A stretch of 64,000 nt of DNA from Bellilinea sp. (GTDB lineage: Bacteria; Chloroflexota; Anaerolineae; Anaerolineales; Anaerolineaceae): NCBI GenBank assembly GCA_026003615.1, contig BPHQ01000001.1, positions 620,001 through 684,000 on the forward strand, given 5' to 3'. The first letter of the stretch is position 1; each line of letters starts with the position of its first letter. Positions 4,071-23,632 of the stretch are shown one piece after another. The notes beneath the pieces are model-generated. The model worked only from the letters and a program-made list of their open reading frames with translations. It was not told the origin of the DNA and searched no databases. The translations under genes were made by a program, and so were the position numbers.

Positions 4071-4072
4071 GG

Positions 4073-4858
4073 ATGATGACATCTATGCCCAGAATTTTGA
4101 TTGTAGATGACGAAGATGCAGCCCGAGTTACCCTGTTAAGAATTTTACAATTGGAAGGCTTCGACGCCGATGGTGTTGAAAATGGAACCGCGGCTCTCCA
4201 AGCACTGACACGGCTCAATTATGACTTAATGCTGCTGGATTTGCGCATGCCCGATCTTTCCGGTATTCAAGTTCTGGAAGAGACAGCTATTAAATACCCG
4301 CGATTGAAGGTCATCATTCTGACGGCGCATGGAAGTTTTGAAACAGCGGTTCATGCTTTACGATTGAAGGTGGCGGATTATTTGCTCAAACCGGTTTCAC
4401 CGGAGGTCATTTTGAATAGTATTCGCAAGGCGTTACAGGATGTTGAACCCAATCAATCGAGGGGGGTGGTCCTGGAACAACGACTGGATTATCAAGCAGA
4501 TAGTGTTCTGACAGGTGAAAACACACTGTTGCGCCTTTCGAATGGTGTTCAAATTGATTTAATGCGGCGTGTTATTTCGTGGAATGAAATTACAATCCAT
4601 TTAACACCAAATGAAGGAAAATTGCTTGGGGTTTTGCTGACAAATCATGCGGTCGTCATGCGCCATCAAGATCTGGTGCGGATGGTTTACGGTTACCGGC
4701 TTGGGGCAGAAGAGTCAGCCAAAATATTGCGTCCAATTTTTTCGCGCTTGAACCGAAAATTGGCTAATTTGCCGGGGGGCGATCAATGGATTCGCAATGT
4801 GCGGGGTTCCGGCTATGTTTTGGAAATTGAAGAGCGTGAAAGCGGGGTAATTCGTTGA
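4073..4858 (+). CDS. Response regulator, REC plus OmpR/PhoB-type winged helix
   Basis: ILIVDDEDAARVTLL...LMLLDLRMPDLSG...LLKPVSP; C-terminal LTPNEGKLLGVLLTNHAVVMRHQDLVRMVYGY...NVRGSGYVLE. Confidence 0.9.
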   Translation: MMTSMPRILIVDDEDAARVTLLRILQLEGFDADGVENGTAALQALTRLNYDLMLLDLRMPDLSGIQVLEETAIKYPRLKVIILTAHGSFETAVHALRLKVADYLLKPVSPEVILNSIRKALQDVEPNQSRGVVLEQRLDYQADSVLTGENTLLRLSNGVQIDLMRRVISWNEITIHLTPNEGKLLGVLLTNHAVVMRHQDLVRMVYGYRLGAEESAKILRPIFSRLNRKLANLPGGDQWIRNVRGSGYVLEIEERESGVIR

Positions 4859-4860
4859 GT

Positions 4861-5805
4861 TTATTTCTGCCACGGCAGGTGGGTGGTTGGCATGCGGGGC
4901 GGATTTAGCCAGGCGAGCCAGCCGGTTTGATGGCGTTTCTCAACCGGTTGTCTTTCAAAACCAACCAGAAGCAGGCTGGCACCAATACAAATTGCACCCA
5001 GCCATTGGAAGATATTCAGGGTTTCACCCAACCATAATCGCGCCAGAACTACGGTGACCATTAATTCGCCCAACCCTAAAAGCGCTGTTTGTAAACCGCC
5101 CAGTTTCTTGACGCCCATAAACAGAGTGAGACGGGCAAGAAAAGTAATTGCACCCATGCCGACTAGCGGCAGCCAGGAAGGATGACCTGCTGGCAGCTGT
5201 CGGTCAAAAAGCAAGTAACCTGTCAGAACAGTGATTGCCATGCCTAGCAAGGTGTAAAAGGTCACGGTGGGGGGTGGGGCTTCGTACAAAATTCTCTGGT
5301 TAATGATCAAATGCAGGGCATAGAAAGCGGCAGAAATCAGCATGAAAAGTGCGCCGAGCCAATCCATTGAACCAGTATTGCTATTCAGTAATAAGTAAGC
5401 GCCGGGTAGTGCAAGGCTCAGGCGAAAGAGAGTTAATCGCGAAATGGTCTGGCGGTCAAGCAGCAGCCAGAAGGCAACAAAGAGTGGATAAAAAGAGTAG
5501 AGCAAATGGCCGATGCTGGCTTCCAGGCGGGCGAGTGCAACATAATAAAAGATTGAACCAATGCCATTAATAAAACCTGCCAGAAAACAGCCAATCAAAC
5601 CAACGGGATAAATATACAAATAGGGTTTTTGAAAAAGCATAACGACGGCAAGGAGACTGACTGCCAGCGTTGTCCTCACTGCAACCACTGCCAAAGGGGA
5701 AAAACCGGCGAGCAAAGCCTGCTTGCCAAAAATGGGCAGCAACCCCAATAAAATGGCTGAGGATAAAGCCGCATTAATCCCCTGAGAGTGGATTTTTCTT
5801 TCCAT
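4861..5805 (-). CDS. DMT superfamily EamA-type transporter
   Basis: About 10 hydrophobic segments in two EamA repeats; 30 nt downstream of the PLP-REC gene on the same strand. Confidence 0.85.
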   Translation of the reverse strand: MERKIHSQGINAALSSAILLGLLPIFGKQALLAGFSPLAVVAVRTTLAVSLLAVVMLFQKPYLYIYPVGLIGCFLAGFINGIGSIFYYVALARLEASIGHLLYSFYPLFVAFWLLLDRQTISRLTLFRLSLALPGAYLLLNSNTGSMDWLGALFMLISAAFYALHLIINQRILYEAPPPTVTFYTLLGMAITVLTGYLLFDRQLPAGHPSWLPLVGMGAITFLARLTLFMGVKKLGGLQTALLGLGELMVTVVLARLWLGETLNIFQWLGAICIGASLLLVGFERQPVEKRHQTGWLAWLNPPRMPTTHLPWQK

Positions 5806-5835: not shown

Positions 5836-7524
5836 TTACTTTAAGAATGCCCGTACCTCGTCCAGCAAATCATCGCTCATAAAATCCCCTTTCTGCATCA
5901 GTGTTTGAATGTGCCCGCGCAAACGCTCTTTTTCTCCCGGACTCAGTTCCTTGGCCGTGATCACAATGATGGGTATCTCGGCGGTGTTTGGATCAGCCTT
6001 GAGAGCTTCCATGACTGCAAAACCGTCCATTTCTGGCATCATCAAATCAAGGATGACCAGATTGGGACGCTGGGTGCGGATAAGTTCAACGGCTTCCACA
6101 CCATTAGCGGCCTCAAAGAGTTCATAATCTCCCTGAGATTGTAAAATTCTCCTGATCAGCCGGCGAACATCCGGGTTGTCATCCACGATTGCGATGCGCG
6201 GGAAGCGATCAATGGCTACTTTACTGAGGGCAGCCAGTAAGCCTTCTTCAGCGCTTTCCTCCATTTGCTCCGACGGTAGGACAACATCTTTAGACCATCC
6301 TTCACCGAGGATGTTTCGCTCGATTGGCATTGTATGACCGCTGACATTGATCACCACGCTTTCGTGGGGGGCAATTTGTCCAGAACGCACCAGTTTTATC
6401 AATCCGGCGACGGCCACCCCTGCCGCTGGTTCGACCGAAAGACCTTCCATTTTTGCCAAAAAGTGCATGGCGCGAAAGGCTTCCTGATCACTGACCATTT
6501 CGAATGTTCCACCGGTTTGCAGAATTTGCTTACGTAAAAGAGTGTAAGTGCGGCCGGGGTCACCGGTTGCTAATGTCGCAATCAAGGTATGGGGCGAGCG
6601 AACCGGAGTCGCATTCTCAAGCCCCTGACGCCAGGCATGAACCATTGGGGCGCAACCTTCCACTTGAATCACGGCAATTTTGGGGATGCGGTCAATAATG
6701 CCCATACGATAGAGTTCTTCAAAACCTTTGTAAACCCCCAAAGGTCCCATGCCACCGCTGACTGATTGAATATACCAGTCAGGAGTTTTCCATGGAAGAA
6801 CGGATAATCCTTCGGTTGGTTGAAGAGAATTGCCTTTTTGCGCGGTGAATTGCTCGGCGATCTCGAAAGCAATGGTTTTCATGGACTCCACACTGGTGAT
6901 ACTCTTTGCGCCGGCATCCAGATACAAACCGCGCTGGCGGGCAAATTCTGCTGCAACCTGTTTTGCCTGATCATAAGAACCGGTTACTTTGATGACCTGA
7001 GTGCCATACAGCGCTACTTCGCGCATTTTTGCAGCTGGAACCAGACTGGTGAGAAAAGCCCATAACTTAATACTTGCCCGAGCTGCGTAGGCAGAATAAG
7101 CAATGGCAACATTCCCGGTTGAGGCAATGACAGCTTCCGTAATTCCTGCTTCTTTCAGTGCAGAGATAGTTACGGCAGCCTGACGGTCCTTGAAAGAGGC
7201 GGTAGGCCCTTGACGCTCGTCCTTTAGATACAGGTTGGGGTGACTGAGGATCATCCCTAAATTCAAAGCCCGAACCAGCGGAGTGCCACCTTCATTCAGG
7301 CACAGATCAGGGTTGGGGTTGAGGACGGGCAGCAATTCCCGGTAACGCCAAATGTTGAATGGACGGTGAGAAATCAAATCTGGCAGGTTTTTGCCAATTG
7401 TTTCATAATCATAAACGGCTTTACGCCAGACACTGCCACACTTTGGACAGGTAGATTGAAGCGGTGAAAAGGGGGATTGGTAACCACAATCCAGGCATTC
7501 AATGGAAAACGATAAATTCATCAA
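5836..7524 (-). CDS. Threonine-synthase-like PLP enzyme with C-terminal response-regulator receiver domain
   Basis: N-terminal zinc-ribbon-like CLDCGYQ...CPKCGSVW; PLP lysine motif KDERQGPTASFKDRQ; residues 444-562 are a REC domain (IAIVDDN...LVILDLMMPEMDGF...IIVITAK...MQKGDF), phospho-acceptor Asp493 codon at 6046-6048. Confidence 0.9.
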   Translation of the reverse strand: MMNLSFSIECLDCGYQSPFSPLQSTCPKCGSVWRKAVYDYETIGKNLPDLISHRPFNIWRYRELLPVLNPNPDLCLNEGGTPLVRALNLGMILSHPNLYLKDERQGPTASFKDRQAAVTISALKEAGITEAVIASTGNVAIAYSAYAARASIKLWAFLTSLVPAAKMREVALYGTQVIKVTGSYDQAKQVAAEFARQRGLYLDAGAKSITSVESMKTIAFEIAEQFTAQKGNSLQPTEGLSVLPWKTPDWYIQSVSGGMGPLGVYKGFEELYRMGIIDRIPKIAVIQVEGCAPMVHAWRQGLENATPVRSPHTLIATLATGDPGRTYTLLRKQILQTGGTFEMVSDQEAFRAMHFLAKMEGLSVEPAAGVAVAGLIKLVRSGQIAPHESVVINVSGHTMPIERNILGEGWSKDVVLPSEQMEESAEEGLLAALSKVAIDRFPRIAIVDDNPDVRRLIRRILQSQGDYELFEAANGVEAVELIRTQRPNLVILDLMMPEMDGFAVMEALKADPNTAEIPIIVITAKELSPGEKERLRGHIQTLMQKGDFMSDDLLDEVRAFLK

Positions 7525-7544: not shown

Positions 7545-10500
7545 TTAAACCTGTATTCGGTGTAAAGCCTGCTCAAGGTGGTTGAGCAAGTCTTTTTCCC
7601 GCAGGTAACTTTTATTGAGCATATTCTGGCTGAAGCTAGCCAGTTGATGATGTTGTTCTGGTGTCAGGTCAGCACCTGTGAGAATGATGATGGGTATATT
7701 GCGGTATTCGTTATCGGTGCGAATTTTTTCGAGCAATTGAAAACCATCCAGCCCCGGCATAAAGAGATCAAGAATAACCGCATCCGGTTGGATATTGTGA
7801 ATCATCTGCAATGCTTTTTCGCCATCAAAAGCGGCAAAGATTTCAAAGTTTTTCTGCTCTGCAAGGGTTTTCTGGATCAGACGCTGATCTTCCAGCGAAT
7901 CATCCACAACCAGAATGCGATGAATCCGGTCCAGACGGTTCAGGCGGTAAACCGCATTGACGAGATCTTCTTGCAGGAAAGGTTTAACCAGATAATCAGC
8001 AGCCCCAAGACTGAATCCTTTTTCTTCTTCTTCCAAAATACTACAAATTATTACCGGAATGTCTCGGGTTTGGGGATCATTTTTCAAGGCATGAATGACC
8101 TGCCAGCCATCCACTTCGGGCATCATAATATCCAATGTGATTGCAAAGGGTTTGAGAGATTTGGCTTTTTCAAGGGCAAGTTTTGGCTGAGTAAGGGGAA
8201 CGACTTTGTAGCCACTGGTTTGTAAAAAGCGTTCATATAATTTTATGACTTGCAGATCATCGTCAATGGCCAGAATAACTTTTTCGGTTTTGGATAAAAC
8301 CTCATCCGATTTCAATTCGCTGGTCTGTTTTTCTGGCTGGTGGACTGGCAGGGTAAAGTAGAATGCGCTGCCTTTACCTACCTCACTCCACAACAAACCA
8401 ATTCGGCCGCCGTGCAGTTCAATGAAAGAACGGGAAATGGAAAGCCCCAAACCCGTACCACCGGTTTTTCGGGTTGGAGAATCGTCCACCTGAGAAAATG
8501 GCAGGAATAATTTTTCCCGTCCTTTTTCGTCAATTCCCTGTCCGGTGTCGGTAACGACAACCATGACCTCGGGTTTGTTATCAGGGCTGATTGACTTCTT
8601 CGCTTCGACTGTGATAGAACCGGCGTCGGTAAATTTGGCGGCATTGGAGATAAAGTTCAGTAAAACCTGTCGGATGCGAGTATTGTCCGCGATGACAACC
8701 GGCAAGTCCGGCTCTACCTGATGATGAAGTTTGATGGGTTTGTCTTTTACCAACCCCACTGCAGTGGACATGACAGAATTGACCAGATCAGCAATGTTGA
8801 CTTCTTCGAATTGCAGCTCCATTTTTCCGGCTTCGATTTTCGAGAGGTCGAGAACGTCGTTGATCAGCCCGAGCAGATGCTGACCGGAATTATAGATTGA
8901 GGTGAGATCCTGCCGTTGGAGGTCGTTGATTGGCCCGTCAATTCCTTTAAGGATTACACGAGAAAATCCAATGATTGAATTTAATGGGGTGCGTAACTCG
9001 TGGCTCATATTGGCGAGGAATTGAGATTTCAAGCGGTCAACCTCGCGCATTTCCTGATAGGCTTTTTGGGCGAGTTCGTAGGCGCGGGCATTTTCAATCG
9101 CCACGGCAATCTGGTCGGCAAGAATCTGTAACACACTCAGATCATCCTCCTGAAAGGCATTTGGCCGCTCCGATTGAATATCCAATGCACCGATGACGCG
9201 CTCGGCAATGCGCAGGGGAATGCCCAATTCCGAGCGTGTTTCTGGTAAGTGTGGATTGGGGAGGTATATTGGGCTTTCAGCAACATTATTGACCAACACT
9301 GGCTCGCCCGTATCGGTTACCTTACCAATGATAGATCGTGAACCAACCGCAATTCTTTGACGGCTTTGCATCACTTCCTGTGCGCCATGACCGCTGGCTT
9401 GTTGAATAATGGCATGGGTACCTTCATCGTTGACCAAAAAGATTGCCGTGTGATAAAAACCAAACCGCTCTCGAAGGAGATTGACAATACGATTGAGCAG
9501 TTCATCTTGAGAGAGGACGCTGGTCGTATCGCGGGCAATTTCTGCGGCAGCCTGAAGTTCGAGGGCTCGACGTTGAGCTTCCTTGAGCAGGCGTTGTCTT
9601 TCCAAAGCTACTGCCACACCGCTACTGGCAACATTCAGTACGCGGACCTCCTCCATGTCATAATTAGCAGGCTGACTGGAAGTGACAGCCAGGACACCGA
9701 CGATTTTCCCCGCACTAAACATCGGTACAAAAATGCCAGAAGCCACTCCCATATGGTGGAGGGTTTGTTTAGAAATGGGATCCAACCGACTATTTTCAAG
9801 ACTGGTTAAGACGATGGGTTCCTCTCGCAATTCTTTGAGGATCGGCAAACGATTGGTGGGTTGGCGCAGATTCACCCAATCCGAATTGTCATTAACTGAG
9901 GCGCTGGCAACAACTTCAAACTCCAGCGGATTGCCTTTTTGATCGTTGTAGATTTGGATGATTGTCACCCGTTCTGCGCGAGCAGGCAGGATTTCAGTCA
10001 TGACGAGATCAACCAAATCGGTAGCGTCTCCTGCCTGGGCAATGCCACTGCTGATTCGGTAATAGAGTTCCGTTTCAGCAAGGGCTGCCTGAGTTTGTTC
10101 GAACAGGCGCATGTTTTCAATCGCGGTAGCCATTTGATCCACCAGCGGTGGAAAGGTGCGCATTTCTCGAATGGTAAAGAAGTGCAATCCCTCAGAAAGA
10201 AAGAGTAGTGCGCCTAATTGTTTTCGGGCAGCCCACAGCGGTAAAACAGCAATGGAGCGCACTTTCATTTCTTCCAGTGCCGACCGAGTAGCGGGTAGAA
10301 TGGCTAGATCATAGATGTCGTTATGAAAAGCTGGTGTTTCAATGGAAAGCAGAGGATTATAGATGGTGTAATCCAATTCGCTGCCAATTATCGGCGGAAG
10401 GGGACCTCTTCCAGAATGCCAGGTTGCGGCAATTCGCAGCAGGGGTGTACTTAACGGGTCAGATTGCTCAAAGAGCACCAGAATGATCCGATTTATTTTT

Positions 10501-12449
10501 TCATCGGTGATGCCGCCGGCTATCGCACGTACCATCTCATGGTAATCGCCCGCCAATGCCAGATTGTGACTGATTTTATAAAGTGTTTCAGTCTCATCCA
10601 GTGAGGATCGCAATTGTTCAAGCAGATCTTGTCGTACAAAAGTATTCGCCAGAGCATCGGCAGCGACTTGCAGGACACCGATTTCGTCATTTTTCCAAAT
10701 TCGATCCGTTTTTTGCTCTAGTGCAATAAAACTTGGAATGTCCCGGTTGCCCGGCACAGCCAGTATCAGTATGGATTGAATGCCGCGCTGACGGAGGAAT
10801 TCTCTCTCCCGGCCTTCGAAATCTTCCGGCTGTCCCATAAACCAGCCTTTTTCTTTCAGTGCAGCCGCCCAATTTGGGAACAAAGCAGCAGAAAGCGGCT
10901 GACGCACAACCAAATCCGAACCGGGACGGAGCTGTGGCGCAATCCAATGGTCTGTCACAATCCAGTGCAAGCCCTGTTCATCTTCTCTTGCGCTGGCAAA
11001 GTAAATATAATCACACTGGGCTGCTTCCCCGAGGAAGCCTAACATGCCGGGGATACCGCGGATGCCGCTTTCCGTCAATGTAGCAACAGCCTGAGCAACA
11101 TTGGCTTGATAACGTTCGCGCTTTTCAATTGCTTGAAGGGCGCTCGTCACTTCTTGGAACAGATTGGCGTTTGCCAAAGCAATGGCTACCTGAGAGGCGA
11201 TTGTTGAAAGCAGGTCGGCTTGAATATCGGAATAAGCGGCGCCATGTTGAAACTCTTGCAGATAAATAACTCCTAAAACCTTTTCGGCAGTGACCATGGG
11301 GACAGCAAGCACGGCAGTTGGAAACGGTGGATCCGCATGAATTCCTTTAGCGGCGAAGGCGTTTGCCACATCATCCTGAATGCGTACAACCTCCCGATTG
11401 CGAACGACATAACTGATCAGATCATTTCCCAATGGTTGAGGTGGTAAGGGTTGATGAGTTGAGTTAACCGTGTGAACTGGGAATGTCAGGGTTTGCTGAT
11501 CGGCATCCAGCATTGCTATGGTCAAATTACGACAGTTTAAAAGTTGAATCAGTGCCTGCTGTAAAGTTGCGATAATCTCATCTTTATCGGTCAACCGGGA
11601 AATTTGCTGGCCAATCTCGTTCAAGGCTGCCAGGTCTTTGTTGCGGCGCAGGATCTCTTGTTCCGCACGAACTCTCTCGTTGAGTTCCTGTTGAACGGCG
11701 GCATACAACTCCGCATTTTCGATTGCAAGGCCAAGTTGATTGGCAACTTCCTGTACCAGCAATAATTCTTCTTCGCTCCACCGGAGTTTTTCTTCATCCC
11801 TCATAATTTTCAGGATGCCGATATCTTGTTGCCGTTTTTTGAGGGGAACGGTGATAATGGCGGGGCTTTCGAGGACGGATTTGGTATGCGATTTTATGGA
11901 TAGGGGCGGGGCTTTTTTTGCTTTCGATTGGAGTTGAGTACTGGATGGGGTTTGGGGTGGAGGTGTCTTATCCGGCTGGCTGGCGGCTTTCTTTACAGAA
12001 AATTGTGGAGTGGTGGGAGGAGTTTGTGTAGATTGATCATCCAATAATGGTTGGGCAATACCATGAAAACCGCTCTTTTCGCCGTTAGGGTCAAGTTTTT
12101 TGAAGATTGTCAGGCGGATCGGTACAGGGCTGCCACTTTTGGATTGAAACACAACGGGCAAGTCAACTGGAAATAAATCCTGTTGCAAGGCATTTTGTAA
12201 TTCGGCTTCCGATTCTCGGCTTAACCCAAATGAAGTAATTGGTTGGCCGATGACCTCATCCGGTAAGTAACCGAGACTGGCTTTAACTGTATCTTCGCAG
12301 GAAATAATGCAACCGCTTTGATCGGCTTCCCATTTCCACAGGGATTGAACCGGTGGCAGCGCAGAGTGAACGGCGGGGTGCTCGACAGCGTCTTCAACGA
12401 TGTTGGCAAAGAGATTTTCAAGCCGGTTGAGCAATTGCTTTTTCGACAT
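7545..12449 (-). CDS. PAS/multi-GAF hybrid histidine kinase with two C-terminal receiver domains
   Basis: 1634 aa; HisKA FLANMSHELRTPLNSIIGFS, HATPase GTGLGLSISRSFIELHGGRI, REC1 VILAIDDD...LDIMMPEVDGW...VKPF, REC2 ILVVDDS...VILDLFMPGLDGF...LNKSYL. Confidence 0.92.
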   Translation of the reverse strand: MSKKQLLNRLENLFANIVEDAVEHPAVHSALPPVQSLWKWEADQSGCIISCEDTVKASLGYLPDEVIGQPITSFGLSRESEAELQNALQQDLFPVDLPVVFQSKSGSPVPIRLTIFKKLDPNGEKSGFHGIAQPLLDDQSTQTPPTTPQFSVKKAASQPDKTPPPQTPSSTQLQSKAKKAPPLSIKSHTKSVLESPAIITVPLKKRQQDIGILKIMRDEEKLRWSEEELLLVQEVANQLGLAIENAELYAAVQQELNERVRAEQEILRRNKDLAALNEIGQQISRLTDKDEIIATLQQALIQLLNCRNLTIAMLDADQQTLTFPVHTVNSTHQPLPPQPLGNDLISYVVRNREVVRIQDDVANAFAAKGIHADPPFPTAVLAVPMVTAEKVLGVIYLQEFQHGAAYSDIQADLLSTIASQVAIALANANLFQEVTSALQAIEKRERYQANVAQAVATLTESGIRGIPGMLGFLGEAAQCDYIYFASAREDEQGLHWIVTDHWIAPQLRPGSDLVVRQPLSAALFPNWAAALKEKGWFMGQPEDFEGREREFLRQRGIQSILILAVPGNRDIPSFIALEQKTDRIWKNDEIGVLQVAADALANTFVRQDLLEQLRSSLDETETLYKISHNLALAGDYHEMVRAIAGGITDEKINRIILVLFEQSDPLSTPLLRIAATWHSGRGPLPPIIGSELDYTIYNPLLSIETPAFHNDIYDLAILPATRSALEEMKVRSIAVLPLWAARKQLGALLFLSEGLHFFTIREMRTFPPLVDQMATAIENMRLFEQTQAALAETELYYRISSGIAQAGDATDLVDLVMTEILPARAERVTIIQIYNDQKGNPLEFEVVASASVNDNSDWVNLRQPTNRLPILKELREEPIVLTSLENSRLDPISKQTLHHMGVASGIFVPMFSAGKIVGVLAVTSSQPANYDMEEVRVLNVASSGVAVALERQRLLKEAQRRALELQAAAEIARDTTSVLSQDELLNRIVNLLRERFGFYHTAIFLVNDEGTHAIIQQASGHGAQEVMQSRQRIAVGSRSIIGKVTDTGEPVLVNNVAESPIYLPNPHLPETRSELGIPLRIAERVIGALDIQSERPNAFQEDDLSVLQILADQIAVAIENARAYELAQKAYQEMREVDRLKSQFLANMSHELRTPLNSIIGFSRVILKGIDGPINDLQRQDLTSIYNSGQHLLGLINDVLDLSKIEAGKMELQFEEVNIADLVNSVMSTAVGLVKDKPIKLHHQVEPDLPVVIADNTRIRQVLLNFISNAAKFTDAGSITVEAKKSISPDNKPEVMVVVTDTGQGIDEKGREKLFLPFSQVDDSPTRKTGGTGLGLSISRSFIELHGGRIGLLWSEVGKGSAFYFTLPVHQPEKQTSELKSDEVLSKTEKVILAIDDDLQVIKLYERFLQTSGYKVVPLTQPKLALEKAKSLKPFAITLDIMMPEVDGWQVIHALKNDPQTRDIPVIICSILEEEEKGFSLGAADYLVKPFLQEDLVNAVYRLNRLDRIHRILVVDDSLEDQRLIQKTLAEQKNFEIFAAFDGEKALQMIHNIQPDAVILDLFMPGLDGFQLLEKIRTDNEYRNIPIIILTGADLTPEQHHQLASFSQNMLNKSYLREKDLLNHLEQALHRIQV

Positions 12450-13201
12450 ATTGGAGGATCTCCTGGGCTAATTCGCGATATTGCGTGGCAGATCGGCTTT
12501 TGGGGGCATGATAAATAATCGGCAAGCCGGCGATTGAACTCTCCCGTAGACGGGTATCAACCATAATAATGGTTTCCAGCACACCATTACCAAAATTTGT
12601 GCGCAATTGTTCGCTGAGAGTTCGATGAATCCGGTTGCGGCGATCGAACATGGTCAGTAAAAGTCGGTAAGTAAGGCCGGGATTGGTTTTCGCACGAACA
12701 CGACGGATTAAGCTCATCATATTTTTCAAAGCATATATCGAAAAATATTCGGCCTGAGTGGGAATGATGAGCAATTGTGAGGCTGTCAGGGCATTGACCA
12801 CCATCGAACCCAAAAAGGGGGGACAGTCAAAAATCACATAATCGAATGGCAGGTGGCTATTGTTAAAAGCCTTTTTAAGGGTATATTCGTAGTCCGGGTG
12901 AGCCGGTAAAATCCTTTCACTGAACCCTAGATCATGATTGGAAGGGATCAAAAATAAACCCGGAATACCGCTTTCCCGCCATAGTTCATGGATTGGAGAT
13001 TGTTGAGTAAAGGTGTTCAGTATGGTTGCATGTCCGTTGAGGGGGTCTGCGCCCAAAGCAAGAGTAAGGTTTGCCTGAGGATCTAAATCTACCAGCAATA
13101 CTCGTTTTCCCCGATTCAACCAGTGCAGCGCCCAATGAAAGCGCAGTAGTAGTCTTGGCAACGCCGCCTTTTTCATTGGTGATGGAGATAAAATAAGTCA
13201 T
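12418..13201 (-). pseudogene. ParA/Soj-like ATPase interrupted by a 1-nt frameshift (real or sequencing error)
   Basis: N-terminus MTYFISITNEKGGVAKTTTALSLGAALVESGK (frame of ORF 12986-13201) continues as RVLLVDLDPQANLTLALGADP in ORF 12418-13176; removing one A from GGGGAAAA (plus-strand TTTTCCCC 13105-13112) restores one ~260-aa frame. Confidence 0.85.
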
Positions 13202-16134
13202 ACCTGCCTCTCTCTTTTCGATCCGTTTGATCCATTGTTTCGTTTTTGAGAAGAAGAATCATTTTTCGTTGGCGACGATATGTCTTCTTTGTTTTCTTTC
13301 CAAATTACCTCGGCATGACTGGCGTTCAGAGTGCGTTTCAACTCTTGAACGGCGATTTCTATCATCGTGGTTGGGTCATTTGTGGAGCGAATCTTGCTGG
13401 TGATTTCCAAAACACGGCGCTCTCGCTCCGCGCGGCGGATAGTTTTTTCCAGCAAACGAGCATTTTCCAAAGCCAACCCAACCTGATCAGCGACTGCTTG
13501 AATTGAACGAATTTCCTCTTCGCTCCAAACCCGGTCGGCAATCTGGTCGTCTTCTATATGAATTACACCGACGGTTTCACCTCTCAACCTGACTGGAACG
13601 GCGAGGGTAGCCGGCAGATTTTCCTTTGCTGGTTGGATGACAATATCTCCGGAAAGCAACGCAGCAGAGATTTCTTGTTCTTGAATCCCTTCCAATGCAA
13701 TCAAGCCGTGAGGGGTTGCACGGTAACCAAGTATCGGACGCTCACCAGCTTCCTTGCCCCATTCCTGGCGCAAATAAAGGCGGTGAACTCGTTGAGATTC
13801 CTCCAGTGCTTGCAAAGTTTCGGTATACAATCGGTTGTTAAGAATAGCAATGGCAATTTGATCAGCTAAAATACTGAATAATTCAATGTCTTCTTGGGTG
13901 AAAGCGTTGGGTATTGTGCTTTGGACATCCAGAGCGCCAATTACCTCGTTGTTCGCCTTGAGGGGCAGCGCCATTTCGGATCGCGTTTGAGGTAAATCGG
14001 GGTTATTGAAGAAGACGGCATCTTTACCAACGTCCGTTGCGATACGGGCTTCGCCTGTGCCGGTTACATAGCCTACAATACCAATCTGCCCGACTTTGAG
14101 ACGGTGCTGGCGGGCAAGCATCCGCTTACCGCCCTCTGAATTGGCTGCTCGAAGAACGGCGTATTCCTTTTGTTCGTCCAACAAGAAAACCCCTACGTGG
14201 TAAAACCCAAACCGCTCACTGATGAGGACAGTTAATTGATTCAACAGACTTTCCAGTCTCTGAGTTGAAACAATTCCACGGGCTACATCGGATACGGTTT
14301 GCAGCTGACGCGTTCTGTAAAGTAACGCTTCATTCTGCTGGGCAAGTTCCTGCGTTCGCTCACGAACGCGGTCTTCCAGAGTATTGATCAAATTTTTCAA
14401 CTGGTTGGTCATGAAGTTAAATGCCTGAGCCAGTTTTCCAATTTCATCCCCCGTTTCTACTTGTGCTTGAGCATCCAGCTCGCCGGAGGAGATCAATTCG
14501 GCGGTTTGCTGCAACCGAACAATTGGACGACTGAATGAGCCAGAGACGACACTGGCAATCAAGCCGACCAACCCGGCAATCAGGGTGGAAATCAAGATGG
14601 ACAGTCTCCCCTGCCGAGCAACCAAACCGGCAAAGGAGGTCTGTTCGCGAACAAACACGAGATACCATGGCTTGCTTTTCAAGCGAGTGATTGCTCCAAG
14701 TTCCGGATGGTTGGGATCATCCGAATGAAACTCACCAGTGAAGAAGGGAGAGTTCAAATAATTTTCCAAACCTGCTGAAAGGGCAACATCATTCGTGCTC
14801 ATCTCGTAAAGAGGTAGATTTGGAACCCGGTTGGATTGAATTAATTTTCCCATCACGTCTGAGGGCAGTGGCATGACCAGTTTGTAAATGTTATTGGGAA
14901 TAAGGGTATCTGCCAGGCGCAGAAAGTTTTCATCTAGCAAGATGGGATAGGAACGGATGCCGACTAAATTGACTTCTTGCTGGAGCAATTCCTGCAAGAT
15001 CAGGGCATCGAATTTGGCGCGTAAAACACCAATCACTTGCTGGCGTTGATTGCGAATCGGGCTGGAGAAGTAGATGTAGCCATTGCGTGATTGCGGGTCA
15101 AAAATCACAGGGGAAGCATATACCTGGCCGGTTGTCATTGGAAGTGTAAAGTAATCGTATTTGGATTCATCCTGCCCAATTTGGAGGGGGTTAATATCCA
15201 AAACGGCTTTGCCTTCCCCATCTACCAAACCATACGAACGCAGATACCGCTGCTGACGCGAAGATAATGAACGCAGGGTCAGGCTGGCAGCTATTTCCTG
15301 AGAACTTTCAGCACGATATAAGGGTGAAAGCGACAAGTAGTTCGAAAAGACGCTTAAGGAAGCTTCGCTGGCGATGGATTGTTTATTTTCCTCAAAGAAG
15401 GAATCAACTTTAGAGGCAGTCTGCTGGGCGGCCAGCAAAAGAACTTGATTAGTTTGATTGCGCAAAGCGTCTTGAAAGAAGCGAGAATTGATGATAGAGA
15501 TAACTAACAGGGGGACAATTGCAATTGCAAGAGAAATTGTGAGTAGCTTGATACGTAGTGTGGCGGAGAGAACTTCCAGCATCAACAAGATGATGTAAAC
15601 CATCATCAGGATACCCAATAATACCGGTATATATAACTCGATTTGCGGCAATCGAATTTGCGGAACCGGGAAGAAATTACCGGAAATCACGACCATCAAG
15701 GCTGAAAAGAAAGCGAGGGTAATACCAGTATCCCTTCGCTGACCTTCGAGAGCCCCGGTAACCAGCAGGGTCAAAACCAGAAAGAGAATTATTGCAAGCG
15801 GCAAAGCGACATTAACAACGAGGGCACTGTAAGCAATAGCAACAATGGAAAGTGATGGGGCAAGCAAATAGGTGCGTTTCTCCGCTACATTATTCTCGGG
15901 GAAAGCCGCGGAAAAGAGTGATGCCAGAAAACCGGCCGCGCTGAAGAATGTAAGCGTAAAAATTTGCCAGTAAGGTTGATAAAAAGACGTTAACAGGAGA
16001 AGGATACTTGAAATTCCAAGGACAATTGCGGAAAGCCGGGCAATCCCTGCGGCAAACCGATCGCGACGATAAGAAGGCTCAGTGCCTTCTTGTGAGATTA
16101 TCCTCATAATATTGCTTTGATAGCCAATGTTCAT
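13198..16134 (-). CDS. Membrane sensor: N-terminal TM region, Cache-like extracytoplasmic domain, HAMP, GAF plus half-GAF; no kinase domain
   Basis: N-terminal hydrophobic segments, periplasmic region after MLEVLSATLRIKLLTISLAIAIVPLLV, HAMP after LIAGLVGLIASVVSGSFSRPIVRL, GAF ERFGFYHVGVFLLDEQKEYAVL...ALDVQS; 4-nt overlap with upstream gene. Confidence 0.85.
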   Translation of the reverse strand: MNIGYQSNIMRIISQEGTEPSYRRDRFAAGIARLSAIVLGISSILLLLTSFYQPYWQIFTLTFFSAAGFLASLFSAAFPENNVAEKRTYLLAPSLSIVAIAYSALVVNVALPLAIILFLVLTLLVTGALEGQRRDTGITLAFFSALMVVISGNFFPVPQIRLPQIELYIPVLLGILMMVYIILLMLEVLSATLRIKLLTISLAIAIVPLLVISIINSRFFQDALRNQTNQVLLLAAQQTASKVDSFFEENKQSIASEASLSVFSNYLSLSPLYRAESSQEIAASLTLRSLSSRQQRYLRSYGLVDGEGKAVLDINPLQIGQDESKYDYFTLPMTTGQVYASPVIFDPQSRNGYIYFSSPIRNQRQQVIGVLRAKFDALILQELLQQEVNLVGIRSYPILLDENFLRLADTLIPNNIYKLVMPLPSDVMGKLIQSNRVPNLPLYEMSTNDVALSAGLENYLNSPFFTGEFHSDDPNHPELGAITRLKSKPWYLVFVREQTSFAGLVARQGRLSILISTLIAGLVGLIASVVSGSFSRPIVRLQQTAELISSGELDAQAQVETGDEIGKLAQAFNFMTNQLKNLINTLEDRVRERTQELAQQNEALLYRTRQLQTVSDVARGIVSTQRLESLLNQLTVLISERFGFYHVGVFLLDEQKEYAVLRAANSEGGKRMLARQHRLKVGQIGIVGYVTGTGEARIATDVGKDAVFFNNPDLPQTRSEMALPLKANNEVIGALDVQSTIPNAFTQEDIELFSILADQIAIAILNNRLYTETLQALEESQRVHRLYLRQEWGKEAGERPILGYRATPHGLIALEGIQEQEISAALLSGDIVIQPAKENLPATLAVPVRLRGETVGVIHIEDDQIADRVWSEEEIRSIQAVADQVGLALENARLLEKTIRRAERERRVLEITSKIRSTNDPTTMIEIAVQELKRTLNASHAEVIWKENKEDISSPTKNDSSSQKRNNGSNGSKRERQV

Positions 16135-17837
16135 GAAACCTCCAATGGAAAATCCCCTTGGCGTATCTCTTCCGGAGGAAGAATCTGGACAACCACTTCT
16201 CTTAACCCTAGTTTTTGTCTGAGCTGCTGGGCGGTTGTTTTAAGAATGTGATCGAAATCCGTACTGGAACGTACTTGCGTGGCAAGGTCGCCTACCAGAT
16301 GTTCCCGTTCGGCACGGAGTTGTAATTCCTCTAATAAACGGGCGGTTTCCAGGGCAGAACCCAATCGTTCGGCAGTTGTGTTGAGAAGTCGTTGAATTTC
16401 TGGAGAAGGTTGACCGCCTTTGAATTTGACATTGAGCATCCCAATTACTTCTCCGCGGCTTTGAAGCGGCACATTTAACACATGGGGATCAGAAATGGTT
16501 TGGGAGGGATTGTTAACTGTGCTGATCGGCTCCACCTGTTTGCGGTTTGGATCGTAACGGAAACCGCGAGTTTTTCGACTGGTGCGGATGTAAACTCGCC
16601 AAGACTTGCGGGTTTCGGTTCGGTAACCGCTCTCCAAATCGGCAACGGTTTGCTGAAGCTGGTCAATCAGCCGGATGCGCTCTAAGGCAACGGCGAGCTG
16701 GTTGGCAATAATTTGTAACGATTGAATATCCACTTGTGAAAAGGCTTCTGGTTCGGTGGATTGAATATCCAGTGCGCCTAACACCCTCTCTCCGATTTTG
16801 ATGGGCAGGGCAATTTCAGAGCGGGTATGAGGGAGCAATGGATTTTTGAAGTGGACGGCATCTTTACCAACGTCTAGTGCAATGCGAGCCTCTCCGCGGG
16901 CGACCACATTCCCAACGATACCCTCCTCGCCCTTTTTCAGTCGGTGTCCCTGGGCAAGCATTTTTTCACCAGCCTCTCCCAGCGCGGAAACCAATACCGC
17001 ATATTCATCTGCCTCGTCCATCAGGAAAATACCGGCGTGATAGTACCCTAATCGGTCGCGAATCAGCTGGATCGTGTTACGAAACAGGTTTTCCTGGCTG
17101 GTTTCCATGGAGATTTGATGGGCAATTTCTCCGGCGGTTTCCATCAGGCTGGTTTGCCGAGTGAGCAAGCGAGTACGCTCCTCAATATGGGCTTCCAAAT
17201 TTTTTCTTTCCTCGCTCAAAAGTTGAGAAAGTTCTTTTTCAGAGGAGGCGGCCATGCTGTATGCCTTGAGAAGGTAACGATTAATGACTGCCAATGTCCA
17301 ATTGGCAAGAATGAAGGTCGCAATCCATCCAATAAAGGGAATGATTTCAAGAGGTTGTGGTTCAAGACCAAACGGTTGGAGTAATCCAAAATGGAGAAAA
17401 ATACCTGCCAGTATGATGAGTACCAGACTTACAAAAAAGGAGATGATTCCGGCGCTTTCGTTCCAAAACACAAAGGCAATTTGGACTCCAGTAAGCAAGA
17501 GGAGAAGTCCAAAGCTTTGAGTTTGACCAAGAAGAATAACTGTGATTCCAACCAACAGATAGAAGGCTACCAGAAAACCACTCCGCAAGGCGGTTGAAAG
17601 TTTTCGACGAAATGTAACGAGAAGTAACAGGGCGAGCAATGGCGCAAGCGCCAGTGGAATAAGAGGCTGCCGGTCAAGTGCATTCTGAAAAGCAATCCAC
17701 AGATAAGCAGCCAGCCCGATAATGCTGGTGAGGTTTAATATGGGTTGCAGAGCGCTACTCAGATCAACACCATCACCCGGCTCACGAAACGGGGAGGTAA
17801 TGGAGATAAAGGGGCGGGTAGGAGAATTTTCGCTCAT
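16131..17837 (-). CDS. Membrane-anchored GAF sensor protein, no transmitter domain
   Basis: Multi-TM N-terminus, coiled coil, GAF IRDRLGYYHAGIFLMDEADEYAVL...VLGALDIQS, half-GAF and C-terminal tail; 4-nt overlaps at both ends. Confidence 0.82.
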   Translation of the reverse strand: MSENSPTRPFISITSPFREPGDGVDLSSALQPILNLTSIIGLAAYLWIAFQNALDRQPLIPLALAPLLALLLLVTFRRKLSTALRSGFLVAFYLLVGITVILLGQTQSFGLLLLLTGVQIAFVFWNESAGIISFFVSLVLIILAGIFLHFGLLQPFGLEPQPLEIIPFIGWIATFILANWTLAVINRYLLKAYSMAASSEKELSQLLSEERKNLEAHIEERTRLLTRQTSLMETAGEIAHQISMETSQENLFRNTIQLIRDRLGYYHAGIFLMDEADEYAVLVSALGEAGEKMLAQGHRLKKGEEGIVGNVVARGEARIALDVGKDAVHFKNPLLPHTRSEIALPIKIGERVLGALDIQSTEPEAFSQVDIQSLQIIANQLAVALERIRLIDQLQQTVADLESGYRTETRKSWRVYIRTSRKTRGFRYDPNRKQVEPISTVNNPSQTISDPHVLNVPLQSRGEVIGMLNVKFKGGQPSPEIQRLLNTTAERLGSALETARLLEELQLRAEREHLVGDLATQVRSSTDFDHILKTTAQQLRQKLGLREVVVQILPPEEIRQGDFPLEVS

Positions 17838-19501
17838 TCTATAACTTCCTCCATTCGATCTTCAGCCGGGGGGATTAAGTGGACACTCACCTCAGCAACA
17901 TTGGGAAGATGACCAATTTCAAGAAGTGCGGCTTTGAGAATCTGATCAACGGTGTTCGCTCGGGAAAATTCAGCCGTCATCTCGCTAAGCCGTTGCTCTT
18001 CCAACGCCCGGCGCTGGGTTTCTTGAATCAAACGGGCGTTTTCCAGAGCAATGGCGGTTTGATTGATAACGCCATCAATAAACTCCATTTCCTCAGTCGT
18101 TAAGCTTTTACTGCCCACATCGAGGGTCAGGTTTCCAATCGCCTGATCACGAATGGTAAGGGGGATGTGGATGAGATTGGATTCTTTGCTATCCTGAGCT
18201 GCAGCAGGATTTTGATAGGAATATTCCATCTTGCCATAGATTGCAATGGTATCTTCCCAAGATTGCATGAGATAAGCTCGGTTAAGAGCGCGAATTTCTT
18301 CGAGATTTTGCTGGGTTTCCTGAAACAGGCGGGCATTCTCCAGGGCAGTGGCCAACGAATCGGCTATCCCCATCAAAATGCGAATATCATCCTGATCAAA
18401 GGCTTCGGGTTGTGTGGATTGGATGGTCAGAGCCCCCAAACAAACTCCACGGCTGATGATTGGGAGTGCCATTTCGGAACGGGTGAGCGGCAAGTAAGGG
18501 TTGTTGAAACGAACGGCCTCTGCACCGGTGTCCAGGGCAATTCTTGGTTCCTTGCGCGCGGTTGCCCAGCCGATCATCGAATTGCTTCCAACAGCCAGTT
18601 TATGACCAGCAGCAATCATTTGACGGCCGGCATCGCCGGTCCCGGCTTTCAGGACGGCAAATTCGCCGCGTTCATCAATCAGAAAAATACCGGCATAATA
18701 CAGGTCAAACTCTTTTTGAATCAAGTCAACGGACTGTTGAAGGAGTGTTTCGGGGTCGAGAAAGGTGTTGACCGCCCTGGCAATTTCTGCGGCGGTACGA
18801 ATCTGGTTTAGACGGCGTTGCAAGGCGGCCGTTCGTTCTTCAACATTTTTTTCCAAATTGAGGCGGGCAGCATTTAATTGCATGGTCAATGTGCGTTGTT
18901 GCAATAATGAACTTTGTAAACCATTCAAGATAGTATAAATAGAGATCAAAATAAAGCCGCCCACAAGGCTGAAATGAATGGCAACATTGACCCAGTTGGA
19001 GAAACTCATCGAATTCAGTAGAGTTTCCCTTAGAGGTTGGCTCATTCCGCCGTAATTCATTCCATATGCCATTCCCACTACGGTTGCAAAATTCAGTAAG
19101 ATGGCAAATACTCCGGCTCGCACTCCCCACAATAACCCGGCCAGGAAAACAATCGCTAAAATATAGGCAACAGCATTCCGCGTAACTCCGTAAACAACGA
19201 GGTTTTGAACACCCAGACCGTATAAAACGAGCAGAATGACCAGAGTGCGCAAGTTGAAAGCTAACTTTCTGAGGAACGGCATTGCAAGTGCAACAACTAA
19301 TGCACCCGTATATATGTAAATCGAGAGGCGATCTTGAAATTGGATTGCCCGTTGTACGGCGATGTAGTAAATAACCGTACTCCCCAATGCAATAAGGAGA
19401 AGCGTAGATTGTAAAATGCGCTCTCGCCAGACAGCTAATTCCCCTAAGCGGGAAATGTGAGAAGGGGTATTGGCAGGATTGATTTGGCGGATGAAGTTCA
19501 T
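17834..19501 (-). CDS. Membrane-anchored GAF sensor protein, no transmitter domain
   Basis: Multi-TM N-terminus, GAF IQKEFDLYYAGIFLIDERGEFAVLKAGTGDAG...LGALTIQS, half-GAF and C-terminal tail; 4-nt overlaps at both ends. Confidence 0.82.
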   Translation of the reverse strand: MNFIRQINPANTPSHISRLGELAVWRERILQSTLLLIALGSTVIYYIAVQRAIQFQDRLSIYIYTGALVVALAMPFLRKLAFNLRTLVILLVLYGLGVQNLVVYGVTRNAVAYILAIVFLAGLLWGVRAGVFAILLNFATVVGMAYGMNYGGMSQPLRETLLNSMSFSNWVNVAIHFSLVGGFILISIYTILNGLQSSLLQQRTLTMQLNAARLNLEKNVEERTAALQRRLNQIRTAAEIARAVNTFLDPETLLQQSVDLIQKEFDLYYAGIFLIDERGEFAVLKAGTGDAGRQMIAAGHKLAVGSNSMIGWATARKEPRIALDTGAEAVRFNNPYLPLTRSEMALPIISRGVCLGALTIQSTQPEAFDQDDIRILMGIADSLATALENARLFQETQQNLEEIRALNRAYLMQSWEDTIAIYGKMEYSYQNPAAAQDSKESNLIHIPLTIRDQAIGNLTLDVGSKSLTTEEMEFIDGVINQTAIALENARLIQETQRRALEEQRLSEMTAEFSRANTVDQILKAALLEIGHLPNVAEVSVHLIPPAEDRMEEVIE

Positions 19502-22500
19502 TGGCCGTTTTCCTCCGGGTGGTGACCGTTGTTCTGGTTGCCGGAGCTGGACACGATGGTGTCCTTACGCTCAAGTGATGAACCTTGTAGAACCGGATTG
19601 ATCTGTATCTGGGCTTTGCGTGCACCGACGACCCGGCTAATTTCATTCACCGACGTACGAAGAATGGTTTCAATATCCACTGAACGACGGATTTTACTGG
19701 TAATTTCGTAAAGCATTCGCTGGCGTTCGACTTGCTGACGAATTTGATCTACCAGACGGGCATTGGTCAAAATTGCGCCGAGCGAGTCCCCCAAAGCACC
19801 AATGATTTCTTGATCGTTTTCGTCGAATCGTTCAATCTGTTCACTTTCGAGCGAAAGTACTCCAAGCAACTCATCTGAAAATAGGACTGGCACCGCCAGG
19901 GCTGAGCGTGTTTCAGGGTGGACTGCTGGCGATGGCTCATTTGGTGAAAGATGACTGACTCGCATCGGATATCGCTCTCTGGCGACAAGTGCCGGCAGGT
20001 AATTGCTGGTTTGGATGTTGAATTGATTAATTTCTAATCCCTCAAACCCGATGGCAGTATGCAAAAACAGGTTGCCATCTTGATCGGCGAGATAAAAGGC
20101 TACTCGTTCCTCACCCAATGCCGTTCGCAGGTTATAGACAGTTCGTTGGATGGCTTCGCTGAGATTGGTGCTGGTTGAGGCGGCTGTGGTCATTTGGTGG
20201 AGTAAGCGATGTTTGACCAGATTTTCCTGAGTGCGTGCGTATAGATTGGCATTTTCCAATGCCATTACCAGTTGATCGGCGAGAATTTCCAGCGTGTGAA
20301 TATCCTCGGTTTGAAACGCGTTTATCCGGTCGCTTTGCACATCCAATGCACCGATCACCTTGTTCGCGGTTTTTAGCGGCACAACCAGCTCTGAGCGTGT
20401 ATCCGGGAGGAGGGGGTTGGGATAATAATTAGGATTTTGACGAGTATTGTTGGAAACCACTGTTTCGCCTCTGGCAACGGCCTGTCCAACCAGCGACCGC
20501 GATCCAACAGCCAGGCGATGTCCGACGGCTTTCATTTTCTGCCCAATATCTCCAGAGGCTTCATGTAACACGGCATATTTTCCAGTCGGCTCTACCAGGA
20601 AGACAGAAGCATGATAATAGCCAAACCGTTCACGAATCAGGTTCGTTGCATTGACCAGAACCTGTTCTGCCTGCAAAGACGAAGCAACATCGCGGGCGAT
20701 TTCAGCTGCAGTGAGGAGTTGTTGAGCCTGACGACTGCTCAGATTTTCCGTTTTCTTCAATTCGGTAATATCCTGGGAAATTACCAGCAAGGCATATGGG
20801 TTTTTATTGGCTGGATCTGTGTTGGAAAAAAGCGGAACACGAGAAACTAATTCCCAAAGTGTTTCACCATTATCAGCCTGGTATTCAACCAATTCTCCAA
20901 TGACGGGTATGCCCGAAGAAATTACCCGCATATCCTTCTGGTGACGAATGCTGCCAGTTTCACCGGGGATTAACTCCTCGTCGGTGTAACCATTTATCTC
21001 ACTGGCTGATGAATACCCAAGGCTGGCGATGAAGGAATTGGAAACCCGTAAATAACGGCCGTCCTGGTCTTTGAAGTAAATTTTCTCCGGTACGTTTTGC
21101 AGCAGGGCGTTTAGCAGGGTGTGTTCCTGATCGTATGCCTGTAAGGTGGAAGTCATGCTTTCAACCAGTTGCGCGTTGCGGATTGAGATTGCTATTTGAG
21201 GGGCAATGGTTTCCAGCAAGATCAGATCCTTCTCAGAAAATCGTTCTTCTTTTTGGGTGTCCTGCACAATGATTGCTCCCAGCACCTGACCGCCCAGCAT
21301 CAATGGTACACCCAGCCAGGATTTGGCTGGTTTACCGATGATTTTTGCGCCTAAACGCATGGCATCTCGCTCAACATCCGAGACGGCGTACATGTATTTA
21401 TAAGCGTTCCAGCTGGCTGGTAAATCCTTGGGTTCAAATTTCAAAGGTAAAAGAAGCGATTTTCGATTTTGGATAATATATGAGGTCAGTCCTTCACCCA
21501 GCGGAAAGGGCGGTATGGAAATCATCTTGCCATCTTCATAATGGTAAGGGAAGTGGATCGTTTGTTTGGTCTCATCGTAAATTGCGATGGAAAAAGATAA
21601 ATCTGCGCCAATTTGCTCGGTTACTTTTTGATGCACCAGTTGATAGAGGGGTTGAAGATTGAATTCGTTGCTGATGGCTTGACTGATGCCGGTCAGGGTT
21701 TCATAAGCAGACATTTGACTCCGCAAATTGCGGATATTGCCAAGTTTTTCCAAGGCAGCGCTTACGGTTTGTGACAGGTGAATGAAGGGTTGAAGATTCA
21801 CCGCTGAAAGTGGAGTCGGTTTGCGAGAGCCAATGACCAGAAGTCTGATAATTCGTTGATTGACCAGTAAAGGGAATATTGCAATGGAATTACAATTGCG
21901 GCTTTCAAACAGTGCAAATAAATCAGATATTTCGCTGATTTCTTCTTTCTGCTCAAGAATGATACAATCTTTCCCTGAAAACAGGGATTGAGGGTTCTCT
22001 ACCGGTACAGACGTTCCTTTGAGAGATTTTTCGCTAAAGCGTGCCTGTCGGTCGAGGAGATGGTTCAAGCGCAGGTTGTTCGGGTAGACATCAAACAAGG
22101 CTGAAACATATTCCACTTTGGATAAAGTTTCATCAAGAATCTGAGTAACCTGAGTCTCATCATTAGCCTGATTGATTTTTTGGGCAGCATTATATAAAAG
22201 GTTTTCTTCCTGGCGATCAAATTCAAATGGTTCAAAGTTGAAGTCACTGGAAAGGTTGTCCCGTACTTTCTCTTCGGAAGCCATTTCCAAACCGGATTCA
22301 ACCAGACCAATGGCCGAATCGGCTTTTTGAGAGATAGCCTGCCGTTCTACTTTACGATAGAGACGTCCCAGTTCATTGCGGAGAAGATTTAAAGCAAAAG
22401 CCAGTTTTCCAATTTCATCTTTGCTTTGAACGGTGAATTTTTGGCTCCAATCACCGTTGGCGAGTTTTTCGGTTTGTGATGAAAGATTTTCAACCGGTAC

Positions 22501-22770
22501 GATAAAAACCTGAATGAACAACCAGATCAAGGCGGAAGCCGTCAACAGACTTATTCCCAATCCTGCCCAAAATACCGGTTGTTCCAGAATCAAATCGAAA
22601 ATAGATTGCTCACTGGTGGTTGCTAATAGCGACCCAGCAATAAGAGTCGAAGAAAGTGCCAACAGCAGGGGGAGGGCTGCTAAAATGACCAAAAAGGATA
22701 TGGCCTTTCGCCTGATTCGTTTGGAGAAAGAAGGAGTTGTTTTTCGGGACGGAATAGATGGAACACTCAT
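19498..22770 (-). CDS. Membrane sensor: TM, HAMP, multiple GAF and one PAS domain, no transmitter domain
   Basis: HAMP VPVENLSSQTEKLANGDWSQKFTVQSKDEIGKLAFALNLL; PAS LLQNVPEKIYFKDQDGRYLRVSNSFIASLGYSS; GAFs incl. IRERFGYYHASVFLVEPTGKYAVLHEASGDIG. Start ATG 22770 preferred over ORF start 22797 (AAGGAT upstream, no overlap with preceding gene). Confidence 0.82.
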   Translation of the reverse strand: MSVPSIPSRKTTPSFSKRIRRKAISFLVILAALPLLLALSSTLIAGSLLATTSEQSIFDLILEQPVFWAGLGISLLTASALIWLFIQVFIVPVENLSSQTEKLANGDWSQKFTVQSKDEIGKLAFALNLLRNELGRLYRKVERQAISQKADSAIGLVESGLEMASEEKVRDNLSSDFNFEPFEFDRQEENLLYNAAQKINQANDETQVTQILDETLSKVEYVSALFDVYPNNLRLNHLLDRQARFSEKSLKGTSVPVENPQSLFSGKDCIILEQKEEISEISDLFALFESRNCNSIAIFPLLVNQRIIRLLVIGSRKPTPLSAVNLQPFIHLSQTVSAALEKLGNIRNLRSQMSAYETLTGISQAISNEFNLQPLYQLVHQKVTEQIGADLSFSIAIYDETKQTIHFPYHYEDGKMISIPPFPLGEGLTSYIIQNRKSLLLPLKFEPKDLPASWNAYKYMYAVSDVERDAMRLGAKIIGKPAKSWLGVPLMLGGQVLGAIIVQDTQKEERFSEKDLILLETIAPQIAISIRNAQLVESMTSTLQAYDQEHTLLNALLQNVPEKIYFKDQDGRYLRVSNSFIASLGYSSASEINGYTDEELIPGETGSIRHQKDMRVISSGIPVIGELVEYQADNGETLWELVSRVPLFSNTDPANKNPYALLVISQDITELKKTENLSSRQAQQLLTAAEIARDVASSLQAEQVLVNATNLIRERFGYYHASVFLVEPTGKYAVLHEASGDIGQKMKAVGHRLAVGSRSLVGQAVARGETVVSNNTRQNPNYYPNPLLPDTRSELVVPLKTANKVIGALDVQSDRINAFQTEDIHTLEILADQLVMALENANLYARTQENLVKHRLLHQMTTAASTSTNLSEAIQRTVYNLRTALGEERVAFYLADQDGNLFLHTAIGFEGLEINQFNIQTSNYLPALVARERYPMRVSHLSPNEPSPAVHPETRSALAVPVLFSDELLGVLSLESEQIERFDENDQEIIGALGDSLGAILTNARLVDQIRQQVERQRMLYEITSKIRRSVDIETILRTSVNEISRVVGARKAQIQINPVLQGSSLERKDTIVSSSGNQNNGHHPEENGQ

Positions 22771-22781
22771 CTGAAATATCC

Positions 22782-23258
22782 TTAATCCATTTCCCAAACA
22801 GGTTCACCGGCCAGTATTCGTTGAATCTGATCCGGAAAACGGTCGGGATCAAGTGGTTTTCCCAAGAAGCCGTCAAAACCGGCTTTACGGGCTTTGTTCA
22901 TTTGTTCAAGGCTGGCTTCGGCTGTGACAGCCACCACCGGAACATTCTTGAACCGTTCCGACTGGCGAATTTTATTGAATGCAGAATAACCATCCTCATA
23001 AGGAAGGCGAATATCCATTAAAATCAAGTCCAGACGCGGGAGAGTATCTGCAAATTCGACCACTTCATAGCCGGAAGTTTTCCATTCACAGTGGATGCCT
23101 AAAAATCCCAACATGCGAGCAATCAGCACAAAGTTGGATACATTATCTTCCACGACCAGAACCGTAATATCTTTTAGTAGATTTCCGGTTGTACCGGCCG
23201 CGGGAACAGGTTTTTGTGGGTTTGGATTTGTAGTGGTGTTCATAGTTGCGTGACTCAA
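22782..23258 (-). CDS. Stand-alone receiver-domain response regulator (CheY/DivK-like)
   Basis: TVLVVEDNVSNFVLIARML...LILMDIRLPYEDGYSAF...VVAVTAE...GKPLD; ATGA overlap with upstream REC gene. Confidence 0.88.
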   Translation of the reverse strand: MSHATMNTTTNPNPQKPVPAAGTTGNLLKDITVLVVEDNVSNFVLIARMLGFLGIHCEWKTSGYEVVEFADTLPRLDLILMDIRLPYEDGYSAFNKIRQSERFKNVPVVAVTAEASLEQMNKARKAGFDGFLGKPLDPDRFPDQIQRILAGEPVWEMD

Positions 23259-23632
23259 TTACTGGTTAAAAATTGGTTGACCTGCTCGATGAAGGTGTCA
23301 ATGTCAATTGGTTTCTCAATATAACCATCACAACCCGCGCGTAAGGTGCGTTCCTTGTCGCCGCGCATCACATTGGCGGTGAGGGCGATAACCGGGATGT
23401 GACTGGTCTTAGGAGTGGCCTTAATCTGCCGGGTGAGGGTGTATCCATCAATTTCCGGCATATTGATGTCCATTAGAATCAGATCCGGAATGCGTGTTTG
23501 GAGCAATTCCAAGGCTTTATGGGCGTTATCGGCTTCCAGTACCAAAAAGCCTTCATGTTCCAGCAGACGACGAACCAGCATTCGATTGTCAAAATTATCT
23601 TCGATGTAAAGGATACTCTTTCCCGCGGTCAT
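23255..23632 (-). CDS. Stand-alone receiver-domain response regulator (CheY/DivK-like)
   Basis: ILYIEDNFDNRMLVRRLL...LILMDINMPEIDGY...VIALTAN...EKPIDI; GGAGG upstream of ATG 23632. Confidence 0.9.
   Translation of the reverse strand: MTAGKSILYIEDNFDNRMLVRRLLEHEGFLVLEADNAHKALELLQTRIPDLILMDINMPEIDGYTLTRQIKATPKTSHIPVIALTANVMRGDKERTLRAGCDGYIEKPIDIDTFIEQVNQFLTSN

Follow-up and report, generated by a model that had tools for sequence, protein, structure and literature searches.

A threonine-synthase-like PLP enzyme fused to a phospho-receiver domain in Chloroflexota: a candidate enzymatic output of two-component signalling

Introduction

Regulation of fold-type II PLP enzymes through a C-terminal regulatory domain is well known from threonine deaminase (PALP-ACT), where an ACT domain occupies the allosteric position, and from cystathionine beta-synthase (PALP-CBS), where the PLP domain is followed by CBS domains. 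Receiver (REC) domains, in turn, have been found on metabolic enzymes of both bacteria and archaea (PMC5847659), and PLP decarboxylases of fold type I carry a REC-derived domain (PMC8503589). In this work we describe a locus in which a fold-type II PLP enzyme resembling threonine synthase is continued by a complete REC, and we analyze its distribution, conservation and genetic surroundings.

The fusion gene and its surroundings

The window, that is the whole stretch of 64,000 nucleotides of Bellilinea sp. that was analysed, contains on its minus strand, at 5836..7521, the gene of a PALP-REC fusion of 561 amino acids (P0001), composed of a ribbon (residues 1-60), a PALP domain (75-395), a linker (about 402-440) and a REC (443-544). 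Two starts are candidates, a TTG at 7524 (562 amino acids) and an ATG at 7521 (561 amino acids), both preceded by AGGA; the phospho-acceptor is Asp493 when counted from the former and Asp492 from the latter, and residue numbers in this text are those of the 561-amino-acid form. An earlier reading made from the letters alone (the sequence-only reading) had proposed one uninterrupted ORF at 5836-7524 joining a PLP enzyme to a REC, the strand being absent from it. The coordinates proved right, and both domains were found by Pfam profile search with E values far beyond chance (PALP, 1.1e-61; Response_reg, 5.2e-22). The motifs it had pointed out are present as well: the PLP lysine is K111, within SFKDR, the zinc-ribbon-like N-terminal cysteines are C9, C12, C25 and C28 (CxxC/CxxC), and the REC keeps the acidic pair D447/D448, the phospho-acceptor D492, T522 and K544. 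The AlphaFold2 model of P0001 was confident (mean pLDDT 86.5), and threonine synthases were the best structural match of its PLP part. The linker was poorly predicted, and its length, taken from E401 to D448, varies between 40 and 62 residues across the fusions.

The gene of the hybrid kinase, placed 20 nt upstream in the same reading, indeed ends at 7545, 20-23 nt from the fusion start. It encodes a hybrid histidine kinase of 1634 amino acids (7545..12449, minus strand; PAS, GAF domains, HisKA, HATPase_c, REC, REC), the likely partner of the fusion. Both genes belong to a same-strand run from 23632 to 4861 that holds two REC genes, four genes of GAF-containing proteins, a ParA-like gene, the kinase, the fusion and an EamA transporter. 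The run, all of it on the minus strand, begins with a single-domain REC protein (23255..23632) and continues with a second one (22782..23258), a HAMP-GAF/PAS protein of 1099 amino acids (19498..22797), a MASE11-GAF membrane protein (17834..19501), a membrane GAF protein whose start and stop overlap its neighbours (16131..17837), a dCache-HAMP-GAF membrane protein (13198..16134) and a ParA/BcsQ-like ATPase gene (12418..13201), after which come the kinase and the fusion. The EamA (DMT superfamily) transporter (4861..5805), recurrent in the module, lies 30 nt downstream of the fusion.

The ParA-like gene presents an apparent one-base frameshift near its 5' end (13201-13080, minus strand), close to an A run and soon after the Walker A motif (KGGVAKT). 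Its listed ORF of 252 amino acids starts in a different frame, and in relatives the gene is intact, with about 260 amino acids; the frameshift may be a sequencing error or a real mutation. On the plus strand, at 2472-4858, a REC-HisKA-HATPase protein and an OmpR-type response regulator are encoded convergently with the fusion operon, and this pair recurs at the same place in close relatives.

Distribution and conservation of the fusion

The sequence-only reading had proposed a genome survey of the architecture along with the Pfam search, and the survey showed it to be recurrent. The class was sampled with 201 genomes, nearly all of them 90% complete or more. Of these, 69 (about a third, distributed over 44 of 134 genera) contained a match at E <= 1e-100; nearly all the matches listed spanned both domains and a few were partial. 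A full-length match was also present in seven genomes outside the class in the sample of the phylum. Full-length relatives keep both domains within one ORF, and the split of the domains in all close relatives that had been contemplated was not seen; a chimeric assembly is ruled out, as the fusion recurs across many genomes. Among the matches listed in a scan of a genome collection, the fusion occurred in many Anaerolineae and, within the class Chloroflexia, in Herpetosiphon giganteus DSM 589, and below the fused loci came unfused relatives of about 35% identity (Actinomycetota, archaea and others). No plasmid record covering 80% of the query was found.

In the tree of the PLP domain, where the row of P0001 was shorter than its full intended length and the other rows were unaffected, a branch with SH-aLRT 100 set all fusions apart, with no unfused member among them. 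In one subclade the fusion protein has two RECs (about 710 amino acids), and its gene is usually followed by one for a single REC. An apparent unfused member (G269:C290) was discarded after checking against the contig, whose end cuts the ORF, and a long form of 1695 amino acids in locus L067 corresponds to read-through of an open GC-rich upstream frame and not to a domain fusion.

Both halves of the protein are conserved. In 105 aligned fusions K111, the loop S134-T135-G136-N137 and S255, G256 and G259 are invariant, with a single A at position 257 of the phosphate loop; of the ribbon cysteines C12, C25 and C28 do not vary, and C9 is nearly invariant. The profile match, K111, the phosphate loop and the fold match place the PLP part within the fold-type II PLP enzymes (PALP). 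In the REC, D448, D492 and K544 are invariant in 105/105, position 447 being D/E and position 522 T/S, so that, allowing for these alternatives, all 105 keep the five residues that PMC12632262 asks of a receiver. Mean identity to P0001 is 63% in the PLP domain and 55% in the REC. From the conserved PLP and receiver residues and these identities both parts would be functional, and the fusion REC looks phosphorylatable. As to its origin, in a tree of the RECs of the module, built on few alignment columns, 42 of 47 single-REC fusions had as their nearest non-fusion REC the final REC of the kinase upstream. The 22 kinase RECs of this kind all had fusion RECs as their nearest. Both results suggest that the fusion REC arose by duplication within the module.

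In 78 of 95 distinct loci the gene immediately upstream, on the same strand, encodes a kinase; after identity clustering this holds for 45/59 at 75% and 13/18 at 60%. An earlier count, which allowed a wider distance, gave a median gap of 20 nt between kinase and fusion. Seventeen of the 95 loci have no adjoining kinase. Downstream of the fusion, among 86 distinct loci, an EamA transporter was found in 42, an RR-kinase in 29 and a single REC in 20. None of 13 unfused relatives has a kinase, REC or EamA gene nearby. The upstream sensors and genes differ among loci, ABC substrate-binding proteins and a predicted methyltransferase being among the variants, and PALP-REC is constant. A gene of the S-adenosyl methyltransferase family stands two genes upstream, before the kinase, in L074 (9729-10541), L053 (245-1048) and L069 (11305-12141); the assignment is by PF04672 for L074, the other two being alike by their N-terminus.

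A receiver-controlled enzyme and its alternatives

A real and conserved fusion, a REC of phosphorylatable appearance and a conserved kinase neighbour fit with a two-component system whose output is an enzyme. Our preferred reading, to which we assign a probability of about two in three, is that PALP-REC is a response regulator with a PLP-enzyme output, switched by the adjacent kinase; in it we infer the phosphotransfer, the direction of control, the substrate and the link to the transporter. The upstream hybrid kinase would sense a cue via its PAS/GAF domains and phosphorylate Asp492 of the C-terminal REC. The phosphorylated REC would then behave as an allosteric domain tuning the PLP enzyme, by analogy with the ACT and CBS domains at the C-terminus of related enzymes. 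The product or the substrate of the enzyme may be carried by the EamA transporter encoded alongside. Against this reading weigh the loci without an adjoining kinase, by which adjacency is not obligatory, and the variable, poorly predicted linker, by which coupling between PALP and REC could be loose; moreover, the hybrid kinase has two RECs of its own and no HPt domain was seen, which speaks against a clear path of phosphate to the fusion.

The flexible linker and the many further REC and kinase genes of the module would also suit a PLP domain that works as the sensor, amino-acid binding modulating the phosphorylation of the REC, which would signal to the single-domain RECs or RR-kinases in a phosphorelay; domains attached to RECs may act as inputs (PMC5847659). 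We consider this unlikely, since all catalytic PLP residues are invariant in the 105 sequences and conservation is higher in the PLP domain than in the REC, beyond the needs of a binding-only role. Another possibility is an unphosphorylated REC, left as a remnant with a structural or ligand-binding role, as perhaps in the REC-derived wing of inducible amino-acid decarboxylases. It has a precedent in PLP enzymes with REC-derived domains (PMC8503589), and in P0001 the usual beta-5 position holds no aromatic switch residue. Conservation of the five phosphorylation residues in every fusion and of the adjacent kinase nevertheless makes such a remnant most improbable.

The identity of the reaction bears on the last alternative, a second threonine synthase, that is the ThrC reaction placed under two-component control. 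Threonine synthases are the closest relatives in fold and sequence, and some fusions pass the thrC cut-off marginally (Herpetosiphon, 170.6 versus 167.1). P0001, however, stays below the cut-offs of both the thrC model (150.7, cut-off 167.1) and the PRK08197 model (248.5, cut-off 303), and the genome of the window has a separate thrC beside thrB, away from the fusion. Furthermore, in the alignment of the 105 fusions DxG..E occupies the position of the classical NS..NPYR motif, which is present in the genome's own ThrC and which we take to bind the substrate phosphate; the C-terminal loop is GHT[FM]P in most members. Given the scores, the own thrC-thrB and the replaced motif, a different substrate is expected, probably some amino acid that is not O-phosphohomoserine. 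Hence threonine synthase, the activity named in the sequence-only reading, was not upheld, and we hold a second ThrC to be highly unlikely.

A thrC match above the cut-off was found in 27 of 28 fusion-bearing genomes, a few of these matches being weak, so that not all are proven classical ThrC. In the genome of L163 (G037), which has the fusion, no thrC match exceeds the curated cut-off; the best one, of 165.1 bits, adjoins the fusion. An unfused threonine-synthase-like gene lies just downstream of the fusion in L134 (8885-10252), L144 (8772-10028), L145 (9043-10257), L165 (8958-10226) and L163 (4011-5543); that of L144 is of the PRK08197 type (573, cut-off 303).

Should the kinase gate the enzyme, a large and poorly studied phylum would possess a two-component response exerted by metabolic flux within one protein and not via gene expression. 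A further idea, speculative and distinctly unlikely as it stands, is that the module forms a sense-make-export circuit: the kinase-controlled PLP enzyme would make an amino-acid-like molecule, exported by EamA and possibly serving as an intercellular signal, the sensors being swapped among lineages and the enzyme switch kept. The fusion makes a defined test of receiver-controlled catalysis possible, in an enzyme fold that is well understood and with Herpetosiphon as a member available in culture. It probably also brings to the threonine-synthase superfamily a new activity, which automatic annotation could label threonine synthase.

Comparison with known systems

The fusion is like threonine synthase (ThrC TIGR00260; PRK08197/NF006050; PDB 6nmx, 2d1f, 2zsj, 1uim) in its fold, PLP lysine loop and STGN loop, and it shares the N-terminal CxxC/CxxC ribbon with the PRK08197-type protein of L144. 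It differs in forming a separate, long-stemmed clade, in the scores of P0001 below both cut-offs, in its phosphate-loop and substrate-site motifs, in the fused REC and in having no thrB alongside. The arrangement resembles that of PALP-ACT and PALP-CBS enzymes, but the C-terminal domain of those enzymes is ligand-binding, not a phospho-receiver.

No description of a PALP-REC fusion was found in the literature searched, which did not include the two principal output surveys that PMC5847659 cites for response regulators, and an earlier listing is possible. Likewise, no fold-type II PLP enzyme is among the outputs named in the literature covered, PMC5847659 included. Novelty is more limited than supposed in the sequence-only reading: RECs on metabolic enzymes (PMC5847659) and REC-derived domains on PLP decarboxylases (PMC8503589) were already known; as far as searched, the new element is a REC on a fold-type II PLP enzyme. 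With the extended (winged) AAT-fold Arg/Orn/Lys decarboxylases the fusion shares the combination of a PLP amino-acid enzyme and a REC-derived domain; those enzymes are of fold type I, their receiver-like domain is N-terminal and the part of PMC8503589 covered describes no kinase control, whereas the fusion is of fold type II with a C-terminal REC. As in the enzymatic-output response regulators (PMC5847659) a canonical REC is joined to an enzyme, although here the REC is C-terminal. Finally, the archaeal fusions of REC with metabolic enzymes that have been described were narrow in distribution (PMC5847659), whereas PALP-REC is spread over many families of a phylum.
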